64,000 nucleotides of DNA, taken from assembly GCF_000800015.1 (NCBI RefSeq), contig NZ_JUGR01000001.1, forward strand, positions 2,976,001-3,040,000, read 5' to 3'. This DNA is from Terriglobus sp. TAA 43 (GTDB lineage: Bacteria; Acidobacteriota; Terriglobia; Terriglobales; Acidobacteriaceae). Positions 3,525 to 7,029 of this stretch are shown here, in pieces (the first letter of the stretch is position 1; the number at the start of each line of letters is the position of its first letter). A model generated the notes under the pieces. It was not told where the DNA came from and did not search any database. It saw only the letters and a program-made list of their open reading frames with translations. Both the position numbers and the translations under genes were made by a program.

Positions 3525-3543
3525 AGTGAACAACGGGCAACAG

Positions 3544-3575
3544 AAAGGCCGCCCTCACGGGCGGCCTTTCTTATT
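3544..3575 (+). terminator. Rho-independent terminator of the ridA-aminotransferase unit
   Basis: An 11-bp perfect stem (AAAGGCCGCCC at 3544-3554 with GGGCGGCCTTT at 3559-3569) closes a TCAC loop and is followed by a T-rich stretch on the plus strand. It lies 20 bases after the aminotransferase stop and just before the end of the convergent radical SAM gene. Confidence 0.85.
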
Positions 3576-3592: not shown

Positions 3593-5722
3593 TTAGTCGC
3601 CTGCAACCAGTTCGTCGTTCTTGATCTCAGCAACAACTTCTACTGCCGGAGCTGCGGGCTTGATGCCACCCAGGCCACCGATTTCGCCGAGAGCGACGAA
3701 TCCGGGCTGTTCCTGCTCCTTCAGGATTTCCTTGCGGTAGAGCTTCGCCATACGGGCGTTCTCTGCATCCTGCTTCAGCTTCGCGTCACGTGCACGGATC
3801 TTCTCTTCGCGTGCGTTCTTGGCGATACCGCTCTTGTCGAAGGTATCGTTCGCAGCGGAGTTTACGTGCGCTTCGTTCAGAACCAGGTCATACTTCTCCT
3901 GCTTCTCGATCGCAACCTTCTTACCACCTGCGAAGATTTCGTGACGGCCGTGCTCCTCGTACCACTTGGTGAGGGTCGACGTCATGTGCATCTTCTCGAT
4001 GATGTTGCGCCAGCCGATACCCGTGTTGTACGCGCAGAAGCTGATTTCGCCTTCCTGCGTTGCGTACGGGATGATGCACTGCTCGGTGCGGCGGAAGTCG
4101 TAGTTGAACAGATCCTGGAACCACATGCCGGCGATGAAGAGGAAGTTCCAGCGGTCAGCGCGGCGCTTCTCAATGTCGGCCATGGTGCGGTCGCCAGTTA
4201 CCTTGCCGTAATTGCGGCCGGTAGCGCCGAAGCACTTGTCGAACTTCTGCAGCAAATCCATGATGCGGAAGTGCGTGGGTGACTTGGTCGGGTCGTAGTT
4301 GCGCAGCAGGGCAAGCGACACACCGACGATGGACAGGAACTTGCCACGTGCCGCATCGTTGACGCGAGCCACGTCCTTCGCAAGCTGTACAGCGTTCAGG
4401 AACGCCGTTACCGGCACAGCTTCCTTCGTTTCCTTATCGATCATCAGCGCCATACCGATACCGCAGTTCGGGTGGCAACCGCAGGAGAGCTGGCCCCACT
4501 CATGCTCCGGTCCGTGAACCAGATCGGCCCAGTCAGAGAAGGTGGACATGAACGAGATGGGGAACCAATCGCGGGTGGACTCGCCCAGGCCCGTCTGGTT
4601 GCGGATGTCGTGTGCGAGGTGCGACAGCGTGTAACGCTGTGCCTGACGGCGCTCGTCCGAAACTGCTTCGTCACGACCGGTAAATGAAACCGGCTGGAAC
4701 GAGAGGAAGTTGATCTTCTTCGGGTTGTCGAGAGCGAACTCGATGATGCGGCCAACCTGCTCGTTGTTGATGCCGTTGATGATGCAGGTGACGGGAACGA
4801 TGTCCACGCCTGCCTCATGCAGATTGTGGATCGCCTGCAGCTTCACATCGAACGAGTTGCCAACCTTACGGTGGCTGTTGGCAGCGTTGCCGATACCGTC
4901 GAACTGGAGGTATGCGTAGCGCAGACCGGCTTCCGCCGCGGCCTTCGCAAATTCCTTCGACTTCGCAAACTCAATACCGTTGGTAGCAGCCTGCACCGAG
5001 TTGTAACCAACCTTACGGGCATAAGCGACAGCGTCCAGGAAGTACGGGCTCAGGGTCGGCTCGCCGCCCGAGAACTGTACCGACATCTGGCGACGCGGCT
5101 TGATCTGGATTGCGTTGTCCAGCATGGTCTTGATCTCGTCCCACGTCAGTTCGTGAACGAAGCCAACCTGGTTCGCGTCCATGAAGCAGGGGTCGCACAT
5201 CATGTTGCAACGGTTGGTCAGATCGATCGTCAGAACCGAACCACGTCCGTGCGTCACGGTGCTGGTGCCGTGGTTGTGCAGCTTCTCATCGTTGTGGGCG
5301 CGGATATCGCGGCCCGGGAAAACGTCTTCCAGGTGCTTCATCATCGGCGGATCGATGGACATCACGTCTTCGAAGTGGCCGTGGATCGGGCAATCCTTCA
5401 CCATCAGGATCTGGCCATCGCGCTCGATGATCTGAGCCTTGATTTCGCCGACCTTCTCGTTGAGGAGGATTTCGTGGGGCAGCTTGCCATCCACAATCTG
5501 CTGACGGATCTCCGGCACGCAGCGGGGGCAGAGCGAATCGGTCGTACGGGGCCAGCCGAGGGGCGGCTTTTCTTTCTGATAGCTCTTCAGCAGAGGCTTG
5601 TCGCTCCACTTCGGCGTGAACGACGGGTTCGGGCTGATGTTATTCAGCTTGTCAAACACTACCCATGCTCCCTGCGCTGCCAGCGTAAGGGCTTTTTCTG
5701 CGAGCTTCGATGCCTTGGCCAT
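3593..5722 (-). CDS. Radical SAM protein resembling tetraether / membrane-spanning lipid synthase (Tes/GDGT-MAS-like)
   Basis: A 709-residue protein with ATG at 5722 preceded by AGGAGAAGG. Domain order: Cys-rich N-terminal module (C65-x2-C68; C111-P-I-H114), then a radical SAM core with the cluster motif C172-x3-C176-x2-C179 and GGEP (219-222), then a second Cys-rich region (LSCGCHPNCG), and later WFQDLFNYDFRR and CIIPYATQEGEISFCAYN. From memory this order and these motifs match archaeal Tes, which couples two phytanyl chain ends to make tetraether lipids using auxiliary iron-sulfur clusters and a rubredoxin-like iron. Subdivision 1 acidobacteria contain membrane-spanning iso-diabolic acid, so joining two acyl termini at the membrane is the likely role. 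The last 110 residues or so are a charged Lys/Glu/Ala-rich extension that I do not associate with archaeal Tes. No lipid gene is adjacent. Confidence 0.7.
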   Translation of the reverse strand: MAKASKLAEKALTLAAQGAWVVFDKLNNISPNPSFTPKWSDKPLLKSYQKEKPPLGWPRTTDSLCPRCVPEIRQQIVDGKLPHEILLNEKVGEIKAQIIERDGQILMVKDCPIHGHFEDVMSIDPPMMKHLEDVFPGRDIRAHNDEKLHNHGTSTVTHGRGSVLTIDLTNRCNMMCDPCFMDANQVGFVHELTWDEIKTMLDNAIQIKPRRQMSVQFSGGEPTLSPYFLDAVAYARKVGYNSVQAATNGIEFAKSKEFAKAAAEAGLRYAYLQFDGIGNAANSHRKVGNSFDVKLQAIHNLHEAGVDIVPVTCIINGINNEQVGRIIEFALDNPKKINFLSFQPVSFTGRDEAVSDERRQAQRYTLSHLAHDIRNQTGLGESTRDWFPISFMSTFSDWADLVHGPEHEWGQLSCGCHPNCGIGMALMIDKETKEAVPVTAFLNAVQLAKDVARVNDAARGKFLSIVGVSLALLRNYDPTKSPTHFRIMDLLQKFDKCFGATGRNYGKVTGDRTMADIEKRRADRWNFLFIAGMWFQDLFNYDFRRTEQCIIPYATQEGEISFCAYNTGIGWRNIIEKMHMTSTLTKWYEEHGRHEIFAGGKKVAIEKQEKYDLVLNEAHVNSAANDTFDKSGIAKNAREEKIRARDAKLKQDAENARMAKLYRKEILKEQEQPGFVALGEIGGLGGIKPAAPAVEVVAEIKNDELVAGD

Positions 5723-5980
5723 ACCTTCTCCTGAACGAATGCCTCACCCCGTGGGGATCACGTGGACGGGCTTAATGAATCTATGCGACGAGCTTAAAGA
5801 TGTTTGAACTCCATCCCAAGCTCCAAACTTTCGGCACGAACCCACAAAGACACAGGGACTTGCGCCTCAAAAAGCGTACCGGAAGCGTCAGAGGGGCACA
5901 TCTGTGATTTATGGAACAGCGACATCAAGCAGCGAACGGCGATCTCTTGCAGTGAACGGAAGGCTTACTTTTACGCATGA
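5723..5980. other. Non-coding stretch upstream of the radical SAM gene
   Basis: No convincing gene on either strand. It must hold the promoter of the leftward radical SAM gene, whose Shine-Dalgarno lies at about 5724-5732; I could not pick out a clear -10/-35 pair. The next feature is a terminator. Confidence 0.5.
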
Positions 5981-6044: not shown

Positions 6045-6827
6045 CTATTTCCGCAAATGAACGATACGCAGAGCGTCATCAAGAAACTCATTCGCCAGCA
6101 TACCGACGGCAGCGCCGCCCAGCGAAGTGCCGTAGTTTTCGAACGTGGCCCTCGCGCCAGTGTCCTGATCGGGGTAGATGAAATTGCTGATCCCGGCTGC
6201 GGTTCCGTAACCAAGCAGCAGTGGCGCATTCAATCTCTGGTGTCCGCTATCGGACCGTGTCACCACAACGCGCGAAGCGGCATAAAAGCCGCGCTTGAAG
6301 AAGCCGTGGTCCCGCCCCATCTGGTAGTAGCGAGGATCATCGTGGAAAATCGGCGCAAAAACCGCATCGGTGGTCAGGCTCTGTGTCACGTTACGCAATG
6401 CCGCAGCACCCACGCGTTTGCCGAAGGCTTCGCTGTTGTGACCATAGTGCGGCGATGAGTCAATCAAATGCGACCATCCCGCTGAAGACATGATGCTGAC
6501 GAGATTCATCAGGCCAAAAGCGTCAGGGAGCGCATAGACCATTTTGTCTGTGGCGCTGAGCGGAAGCGCCTGCTGGCCGGGATAGATCAGGCTCGCGTAT
6601 TTCTTCGCCACCGGGCGCCCGTAGTTTCCCGCGTTGGCGCGTATGGGCGAATTCGCGTTCTTCTGGTCTGCCTGGTCTTCAAGCGAATCGCGTACTGTTG
6701 AGGGCGCATCCGGCAGAAACGCCGGCTGTTCAAGGCGCGCCTCCGCCATGTGCTGCACATTCGGTTCCTGCCCGAACAGCAACGGCGAGATTAAGAGAGA
6801 GGCAGACGCAATGAGATATCGCTTCAA
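6045..6827 (-). CDS. Exported protein of unknown function
   Basis: A 260-residue protein that I cannot assign to a named family. The TTG at 6827 is chosen because AAGGAA sits eight bases upstream and the product then begins with a clean Sec signal peptide (MKRYLIASASLLISPLLFGQ). The mature part has a disordered start (LPDAPSTVRD), then a segment with IFHDDPRYYQMG and several Gly-rich amphipathic stretches (GYGTAAGISNFIYP, SLGGAAVGMLANEF), suggesting an outer-membrane or membrane-associated protein. The DDPRYY motif recurs, to my recollection, in conserved acidobacterial proteins of unknown role. It ends at a terminator and has no obvious operon partner. Confidence 0.65.
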   Translation of the reverse strand: MKRYLIASASLLISPLLFGQEPNVQHMAEARLEQPAFLPDAPSTVRDSLEDQADQKNANSPIRANAGNYGRPVAKKYASLIYPGQQALPLSATDKMVYALPDAFGLMNLVSIMSSAGWSHLIDSSPHYGHNSEAFGKRVGAAALRNVTQSLTTDAVFAPIFHDDPRYYQMGRDHGFFKRGFYAASRVVVTRSDSGHQRLNAPLLLGYGTAAGISNFIYPDQDTGARATFENYGTSLGGAAVGMLANEFLDDALRIVHLRK

Positions 6828-7029
6828 CTTGGCGTTCCTTTTCGGGGCTGTATTACAGAGTGCTCCGGTGTATCGCAAATTGGAAGCTTGTTATTTCGTT
6901 TGAGTTGCACCGGGGTCCGGGGTTAACTCAAGCGGCAACTCCCGAGAATTCTCGCAGAACCCTCGCTGTGGATACGGTTCTAATTGCATGTGGATGTGTG
7001 CGCCCATCGGCGCGGGAAGGAATCGGGAG

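Follow-up and report, generated by a model that had tools for sequence, protein, structure and literature searches.

Which enzyme makes the membrane-spanning iso-diabolic acid of acidobacteria is the question raised by one gene of Terriglobus sp. TAA 43. The gene lies in a 64,000-nucleotide stretch of contig NZ_JUGR01000001.1 (assembly GCF_000800015.1, positions 2,976,001 to 3,040,000), here called the window. A sequence-only reading of the window had described a 709-residue radical S-adenosylmethionine (SAM) protein at 3593-5722 and had proposed that this relative of archaeal Tes, also known as GDGT-MAS, could make iso-diabolic acid. The 709-codon frame was found to be open and to lie on the minus strand, a point on which that reading was silent. 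Its assignment to subdivision 1 is reasonable because members of the Acidobacteriaceae, among them Edaphobacter, Granulicella and Acidipila, stand closest among named relatives. Below, P0001 is the 709-amino-acid window protein, and codes in L and G denote loci and genomes. We consider it likely that the gene encodes a membrane-spanning lipid synthase producing iso-diabolic acid in this acidobacterium, on the basis of homology, fold, ligand conservation, gene distribution and a match of genotype and phenotype in Edaphobacter modestus. The substrate, reaction and product are proposed by analogy, and sequence comparison leaves the original suggestion well supported.

Among NCBIfam models P0001 matched Tes (NF045702) best, at 313.4 bits and across residues 61-580; a top match in some unrelated radical SAM family had been named beforehand as the outcome that would speak against the proposal. 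A search of PDB sequences gave GDGT-MAS as the only strong match (E 1.4e-57; next 3.1e-06). The structure model that had been called for was built with AlphaFold from 44 homologues, with a mean predicted local distance difference test score of 87.0 and a predicted template modelling score of 0.86. It matched GDGT-MAS (7TOM) with a Z score of 41.1 and a root-mean-square deviation of 2.5 over 475 residues, spanning 57-594 of the model and 1-498 of the chain. The best entry outside GDGT-MAS reached Z 18.9, and GDGT-MAS was the sole match over the whole length. Foldseek agreed (E 4.8e-34 versus 7.4e-08 for the top entry other than GDGT-MAS). The other fold matches, among them MoaA, viperin and HydE, were rejected as instances of the common radical SAM barrel. 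P0001 is thus a Tes/GDGT-MAS relative along its core, but a divergent, non-equivalog Tes: the proposed identity holds for the family and superfamily and fails for the equivalog.

The metal sites were located in an alignment of P0001 with 158 homologue rows and part of the archaeal enzyme MJ0619; a smaller alignment was also made. Type A comprises 142 rows (P0001 and 141 loci), each at least 48.9% identical to P0001, and type B 17 rows; L001 and L004, which correspond to the gene of the window itself, were left out and some rows represent one gene twice (L021/L094, by coordinates). The gene and its motifs are as follows.

3593..5722, minus strand: coding sequence of a type A Tes-superfamily radical SAM protein, putative iso-diabolic acid or membrane-spanning lipid synthase, 709 amino acids (frame, motifs, profile, PDB, alignment and fold matches).
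5519..5530, minus strand: C65xxC68, first half of a rubredoxin-type metal site (142/142 type A rows; PF23545 zinc ribbon at residues 58-122).
5378..5392, minus strand: C111-PIHG (C111, H114), second half of the rubredoxin-type site, equivalent to MJ0619 C33 and H36 (alignment; H114 in 141/142).
5261..5278, minus strand: H149-N-H151-G-T-S154, at the position of the GDGT-MAS [4Fe-4S]N ligands, with no Cys and with both His invariant in type A (alignment).
5186..5209, minus strand: C172xxxC176xxC179, radical SAM [4Fe-4S] cluster (motif, Pfam, alignment).
4673..4696, minus strand: QPVSFTGR loop (Q343, S346, R350), equivalent to MJ0619 Q268, S271 and R275 (alignment).
4460..4483, minus strand: C414GC416HPNC420G, with C420 equivalent to MJ0619 C338 (alignment).
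4025..4126, minus strand: M533...C549...Y553...C563-AYN, the [4Fe-4S]C region, with M533 equivalent to the labile Met439 and Y553 to Tyr459 of GDGT-MAS (alignment).

The motifs quoted in the sequence-only reading were all present, namely C65-PR-C68, C111-PIHG, C172-NMM-C176-DP-C179, C414-G-C416-HPN-C420-G and, towards the C-terminus, W534-FQDLFNYDFRR...C549-IIPYATQEGEISF-C563-AYN. In MJ0619 the rubredoxin site is described as being formed by C9, C12, C33 and H36, and the surface-located [4Fe-4S]N cluster by C73, C77, C80 and a conserved His; a radical SAM CX3CX2C motif and a [4Fe-4S]C cluster with labile Met439 are also described, together with a fully conserved Tyr459 (Lloyd et al. 2022, PMC9433317). 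The rubredoxin pattern CxxC...CxxH recurs in type A, with C65, C68 and C111 in 142/142 rows and H114 in 141/142. C172, C176 and C179 are present in every type A row, as are C420, C549, C563, M533 and Y553. From alignment position and conservation we take C420, C549 and C563 as the [4Fe-4S]C ligands; Met439 and Tyr459 are the residues named in PMC9433317. The [4Fe-4S]N segment (residues 128-166) holds no Cys in any of the 142 type A rows, whereas all 17 type B rows keep the ligands and have 3-5 Cys there. At this former cluster position every type A row has H149, H151 and S154, and C414 and C416, both missing from MJ0619, are invariant as well. Judged from the alignment, type A is without the N-terminal auxiliary cluster, one of three [4Fe-4S] clusters. 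The claimed Tes/GDGT-MAS module order therefore stands for the rubredoxin, SAM and C-terminal modules and falls for the N-terminal auxiliary module, and the proposed check of cysteine conservation divides in the same way (142/142 against 0/142).

Compared with archaeal GDGT-MAS (MJ0619, 7TOL/7TOM), P0001 shares the whole-length fold, the rubredoxin site, the radical SAM cluster, the presumed [4Fe-4S]C cysteines with their Met and Tyr, and the Q, S and R of the loop. It differs in the absent [4Fe-4S]N ligands, in Cys414, Cys416 and His149/His151, which replace other residues, in its N- and C-terminal extensions and in its likely substrate, which would be bacterial ester lipids. The acidobacterial type B homologues belong to the same superfamily and have the same catalytic ligands, at 30-35% identity to P0001 in 11 rows. 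Unlike type A they keep the N-cluster ligands, are shorter (474-591 amino acids, from estimated starts), stand nearer to MJ0619 and co-occur with PF09989; most of them exceed the NF045702 cut-off.

The separation of the two classes was also seen in a maximum-likelihood tree. Its 51 rows were MJ0619, 34 type A rows out of 142 and every type B row except L056 (16 out of 17). All type A rows fell on one side of a branch with a support of 100/100 and a length of 2.95. Identity to the MJ0619 part was 28.7-32.8% for type A and 36.9-47.6% for type B without L056. For homologues compared with a Methanosarcina Tes, Zeng et al. 2022 (PMC8941075) give 32% for E. aggregans, 42% for Koribacter and 40% for Solibacter. 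Set beside our ranges, these values would probably place the E. aggregans protein in type A and the Koribacter and Solibacter proteins in type B.

The distribution of the gene was followed in 395 genomes of the phylum, with a requested completeness of at least 90%. P0001 found matches at E <= 1e-20 in 208 of them. Type A, called at a best E <= 1e-190 to P0001 with 28 weaker genomes of the 208 set aside by hand, is present in 180. Identity to P0001 was 62-100% among the matches listed and 49-59% for more distant ones, a level of conservation that places the gene far beyond chance. Within the window's own family (f1) type A occurs in 50/50 sampled genomes, a count based on the non-matching genomes, which in order of nearest kin first begin at the level of the same phylum. 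The window genome itself (4.95 Mb, 7 contigs) has one Tes-family gene, and two further radical SAM matches cover less than 40% of the Tes model. In plasmids, tblastn found partial matches of at most 30% identity in 6 records, five haloarchaeal and one from Persicobacter.

A strain with both lipid data and a genome is Edaphobacter modestus DSM 18101, for which 30.4% iso-diabolic acid and undetected glycerol ethers are reported (PMC11354219). Its genome (L085) contains a single Tes-family match at E <= 1e-40, which is type A and 93.7% identical to P0001 over the aligned columns, and a search of this genome for PF09989 gave no match. In the same source E. aggregans DSM 19364 has 26.4% iso-diabolic acid, likewise with undetected glycerol ethers, and the tabulated Edaphobacter strains range from 11.8 to 30.4%. 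For Occallatibacter and near relatives, five strain columns give 26.8-49.2% (PMC12935467).

By analogy with GDGT-MAS, the substrate of P0001 would be two iso-C15 acyl chains of preformed glycerophospholipids. A 5'-deoxyadenosyl radical generated at the C172/C176/C179 cluster would remove a hydrogen close to the terminus of one chain, leaving a carbon radical that would be parked on a sulfur within the C-terminal [4Fe-4S] cluster (C420, C549, C563, labile M533). Once a second SAM had activated the remaining chain, a bond between the two sp3 carbons would form, giving ester-bound 13,16-dimethyl octacosanedioic acid. A search of the window genome for DUF2229 (PF09989, part of PlsA/Ger) found no match, and ElbD- and Agps-type ether routes were not searched. 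Because no such Ger/PlsA-like protein was found, the product is expected to be mainly ester-linked, and a tetraether product is less likely for this gene.

Type B, counted here as Tes above the cut-off, occurs in 34/395 genomes, and 14 genomes have both classes. PF09989 was found in 90/395 genomes. It is enriched with type B (25/34 versus 65/361, Fisher p 4.6e-11), shows no enrichment with type A (37/180 versus 53/215, p 0.40) and is depleted in type A-only genomes (24/166 versus 66/229, p 0.001), although these values exaggerate independence, the sampled genomes being akin to each other. PF09989 is not specific for Ger either: it is present in those 24/166 type A-only genomes, absent from 9/34 type B genomes and found in other enzyme activators too. 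Because of these other carriers and the kinship of the genomes, we use the pattern as supporting evidence only. In G164 and G218 the frame adjoining type B on the same strand is 1031 or 1045 codons long and contains DUF2229 as well as two BcrAD_BadFG stretches. Ger, validated as forming alkyl ethers, is described as comprising those PlsA homologues that carry two activation domains (PMC13274423). The stretches L167:5181-10204 and L168:1298-6193, holding type B with a Ger-like gene, form a candidate two-gene tetraether cassette. They are the only two of 25 genomes with type B and PF09989 whose listed places share a contig, and they were chosen for PF09989 on the type B contig, as two of six type B stretches whose surroundings were inspected.

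The relative position of the two classes is known for 8 of the 14 genomes with both, four in f1 and four outside it. In the f1 genomes (G065, G107, G243 and G391) both genes are on the same contig and strand in 4/4 cases, with type A upstream and gaps of about 5.6, 3.4, 0.2 and 10.9 kb (loci L163-L166); G391 carries both without PF09989. In G034, G286, G292 and G363, which are outside f1, each class is on a contig of its own. We count the f1 arrangement in favour of the synthase reading of type A and the separation elsewhere against it.

We tentatively propose, with slightly more doubt than confidence, that the Acidobacteriota possess two different membrane-welding enzymes, both from the same superfamily. 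Type B would be an archaeal-like, Ger-associated Tes that makes tetraethers. Type A would be a distinct ester-lipid coupler that has lost the N-cluster, has a rebuilt metal environment (His149, His151, Cys414, Cys416) and supplies the bulk of the iso-diabolic acid of aerobic soil acidobacteria.

Several of our own results and published statements weigh against these readings. They include the kinship of the genomes, the imperfect specificity of PF09989, the separate contigs outside f1 and the selection of the two cassette stretches. In addition, the type B row L056 (a 498-amino-acid frame) deviates at the C-cluster ligands, and type B is not a single clade, L044 and L045 being nearest to type A. 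Both of these retain the N-cluster and also possess C414, L044 on a long branch, and because the two features coexist there the gain of C414 probably predates the loss of the N-cluster. The score of P0001 remains below the 450-bit equivalog cut-off of NF045702 and, on the alignment, the [4Fe-4S]N ligands are missing from type A. The match of lipids to genome covers one strain, E. modestus. Among 14 genomes taken from 80 loci, Tes over the cut-off was found in 0/14 and PF09989 in 1/14, and Acidicapsa (L116) had a second, weaker match; these genomes were selected from type A loci, and type A in 14/14 is no test because they were chosen for holding it. Open reading frames in the flanks of 83 loci (those of at least 9,000 bases among L063-L162) were clustered; leaving aside the gene and frames that overlap it, the most widespread neighbour family reached 19 loci. 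In 2025 bacterial Tes homologues were still described as unconfirmed in function (PMC11868695), and in other bacteria the coupling of fatty acids is reported for a separate enzyme, Mss (PMC13274423).

The existence of Mss underlies the alternative that survives best, though we regard it as unlikely: type A would be a lipid-acting Tes relative with another C-H reaction or product, such as an acyl cross-link or desaturation, and an unrelated Mss-type enzyme would make iso-diabolic acid. The missing auxiliary cluster and the invariant C414 and C416, which MJ0619 lacks, mean that the chemistry of type A may differ. Moreover, Thermotoga maritima, described as a maker of diabolic acid (PMC8788747), has no Tes-family match at E <= 1e-40, and coupling can therefore proceed with no Tes-family gene that reaches this threshold. 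Of the control genomes, 3/14 matched Tes at E <= 1e-40, all archaeal; at E <= 0.001 all 14 did, because of general radical SAM likeness. Mss (Thermotoga/Bacillota; Sahonero-Canavesi et al. 2022) resembles the Tes family in its reported tail-to-tail acyl coupling to (iso-)diabolic acid and in its Tes-like predicted architecture (PMC13274423, PMC11868695). Compared by description only, it may belong to a different or far more distant family, because of the T. maritima result. On the other hand, type A retains the ligands of the radical-parking cluster with the Met and Tyr. The gene is also present throughout the sampled f1 genomes, and the nearest named relatives of this family include Edaphobacter, with the iso-diabolic acid contents given above.

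It is very improbable that P0001 acts on peptides or pterins, as a radical SAM enzyme of the TrsS kind or of the older methanopterin type, and not on lipids. TrsS (NF045646) was the second NCBIfam match at 206.7 bits, and Pfam gives the N-terminal ribbon (PF23545) the name HMPTM. However, the TrsS score is well under the 490-bit equivalog cut-off, the best TrsS stretch is confined to residues 93-378 compared with 61-580 for Tes, and the whole-length fold match goes to GDGT-MAS. P0001 shares the radical SAM core with this (seleno)protein family, and a role as TrsS maturase was rejected on score and partial coverage. The methanopterin-related annotation belonged to MJ0619, for which Lloyd et al. 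report that it was not corroborated (PMC9433317), and it was rejected as well. Equally hard to sustain is the view that P0001 turns diethers directly into branched glycerol dialkyl glycerol tetraethers (brGDGTs), a route proposed for Solibacter: Tes homologues have been suggested to make brGDGTs in Acidobacteria including E. aggregans (PMC8941075, PMC10087280), but the DUF2229 search of the window genome, within the scope stated above, was negative and PF09989 goes with type B and not with type A.

The synthase gene has the following further features and surroundings.

5728..5732, minus strand: ribosome-binding site AGGAG, 5 nt ahead of the ATG (sequence).
5642..5719, minus strand: N-terminal helix, residues 2-27, beyond the GDGT-MAS coverage (predicted helix; fold match begins at residue 57).
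3596..3922, minus strand: C-terminal extension, residues 601-709, less conserved, with a long helix at 637-665 and a low-confidence end at 680-709 (model, alignment).
3542..3571, plus strand: 13-bp GC-rich terminator-like hairpin between convergent genes (terminator scan).

From the model we only infer that the helix at residues 2-27 might have a membrane-facing role. The scan assigned the hairpin to the plus strand, that of the convergent class V aminotransferase gene; it may also terminate the minus-strand synthase gene. A promoter scan gave a single promoter-like site, inside the synthase gene and at chance level. Upstream, at window 6045-6878 (minus strand), the synthase is adjoined by a 277-amino-acid protein for which Pfam gave nothing at E <= 0.001. 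The commonest type A neighbours in the 83 clustered loci were a 324-amino-acid protein upstream (19), a 273-amino-acid RlpA-like protein (17) and two others (10 each). The first of these is placed like the 277-amino-acid neighbour in the window, a relationship judged by position alone. An operon explanation for type A was dropped, there being no widely kept neighbour. Some genomes hold two type A paralogues (G055: L008 and L057; G024: L038 and L058), and the second copy in G024 (family f22), with 52% identity to P0001, may be a separate subclass. A type A gene with 85-86% identity to P0001 also occurs on contigs L106 and L109, whose label is Rhodanobacteraceae; these look more like mislabelled acidobacterial bins than a case of gene transfer.

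The general proposal that bacterial Tes homologues, acidobacterial ones included, make membrane-spanning lipids was already put forward by Zeng et al. 2022 (PMC8941075) and also in PMC10087280. New are the type A clade, its lost N-cluster and the division into types A and B; no description of the clade or of the lost cluster was found in the open-access library that was searched. Iso-diabolic acid makes up 11.8-49.2% of the fatty acids in the acidobacterial strains considered from PMC11354219 and PMC12935467. It is regarded as a likely building block of brGDGTs, on which soil and lake temperature proxies are based (PMC13274423), and the acidobacterial brGDGT pathway was called unclear in 2025 (PMC11868695). 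The window gene is a leading candidate for producing the acidobacterial lipids on which a common climate thermometer draws. The single copy of type A in E. modestus and its presence in all 50 genomes of the window's family make the question genetically testable, and a naturally occurring Tes relative that lacks this N-terminal cluster raises the question of which clusters Csp3-Csp3 coupling needs.

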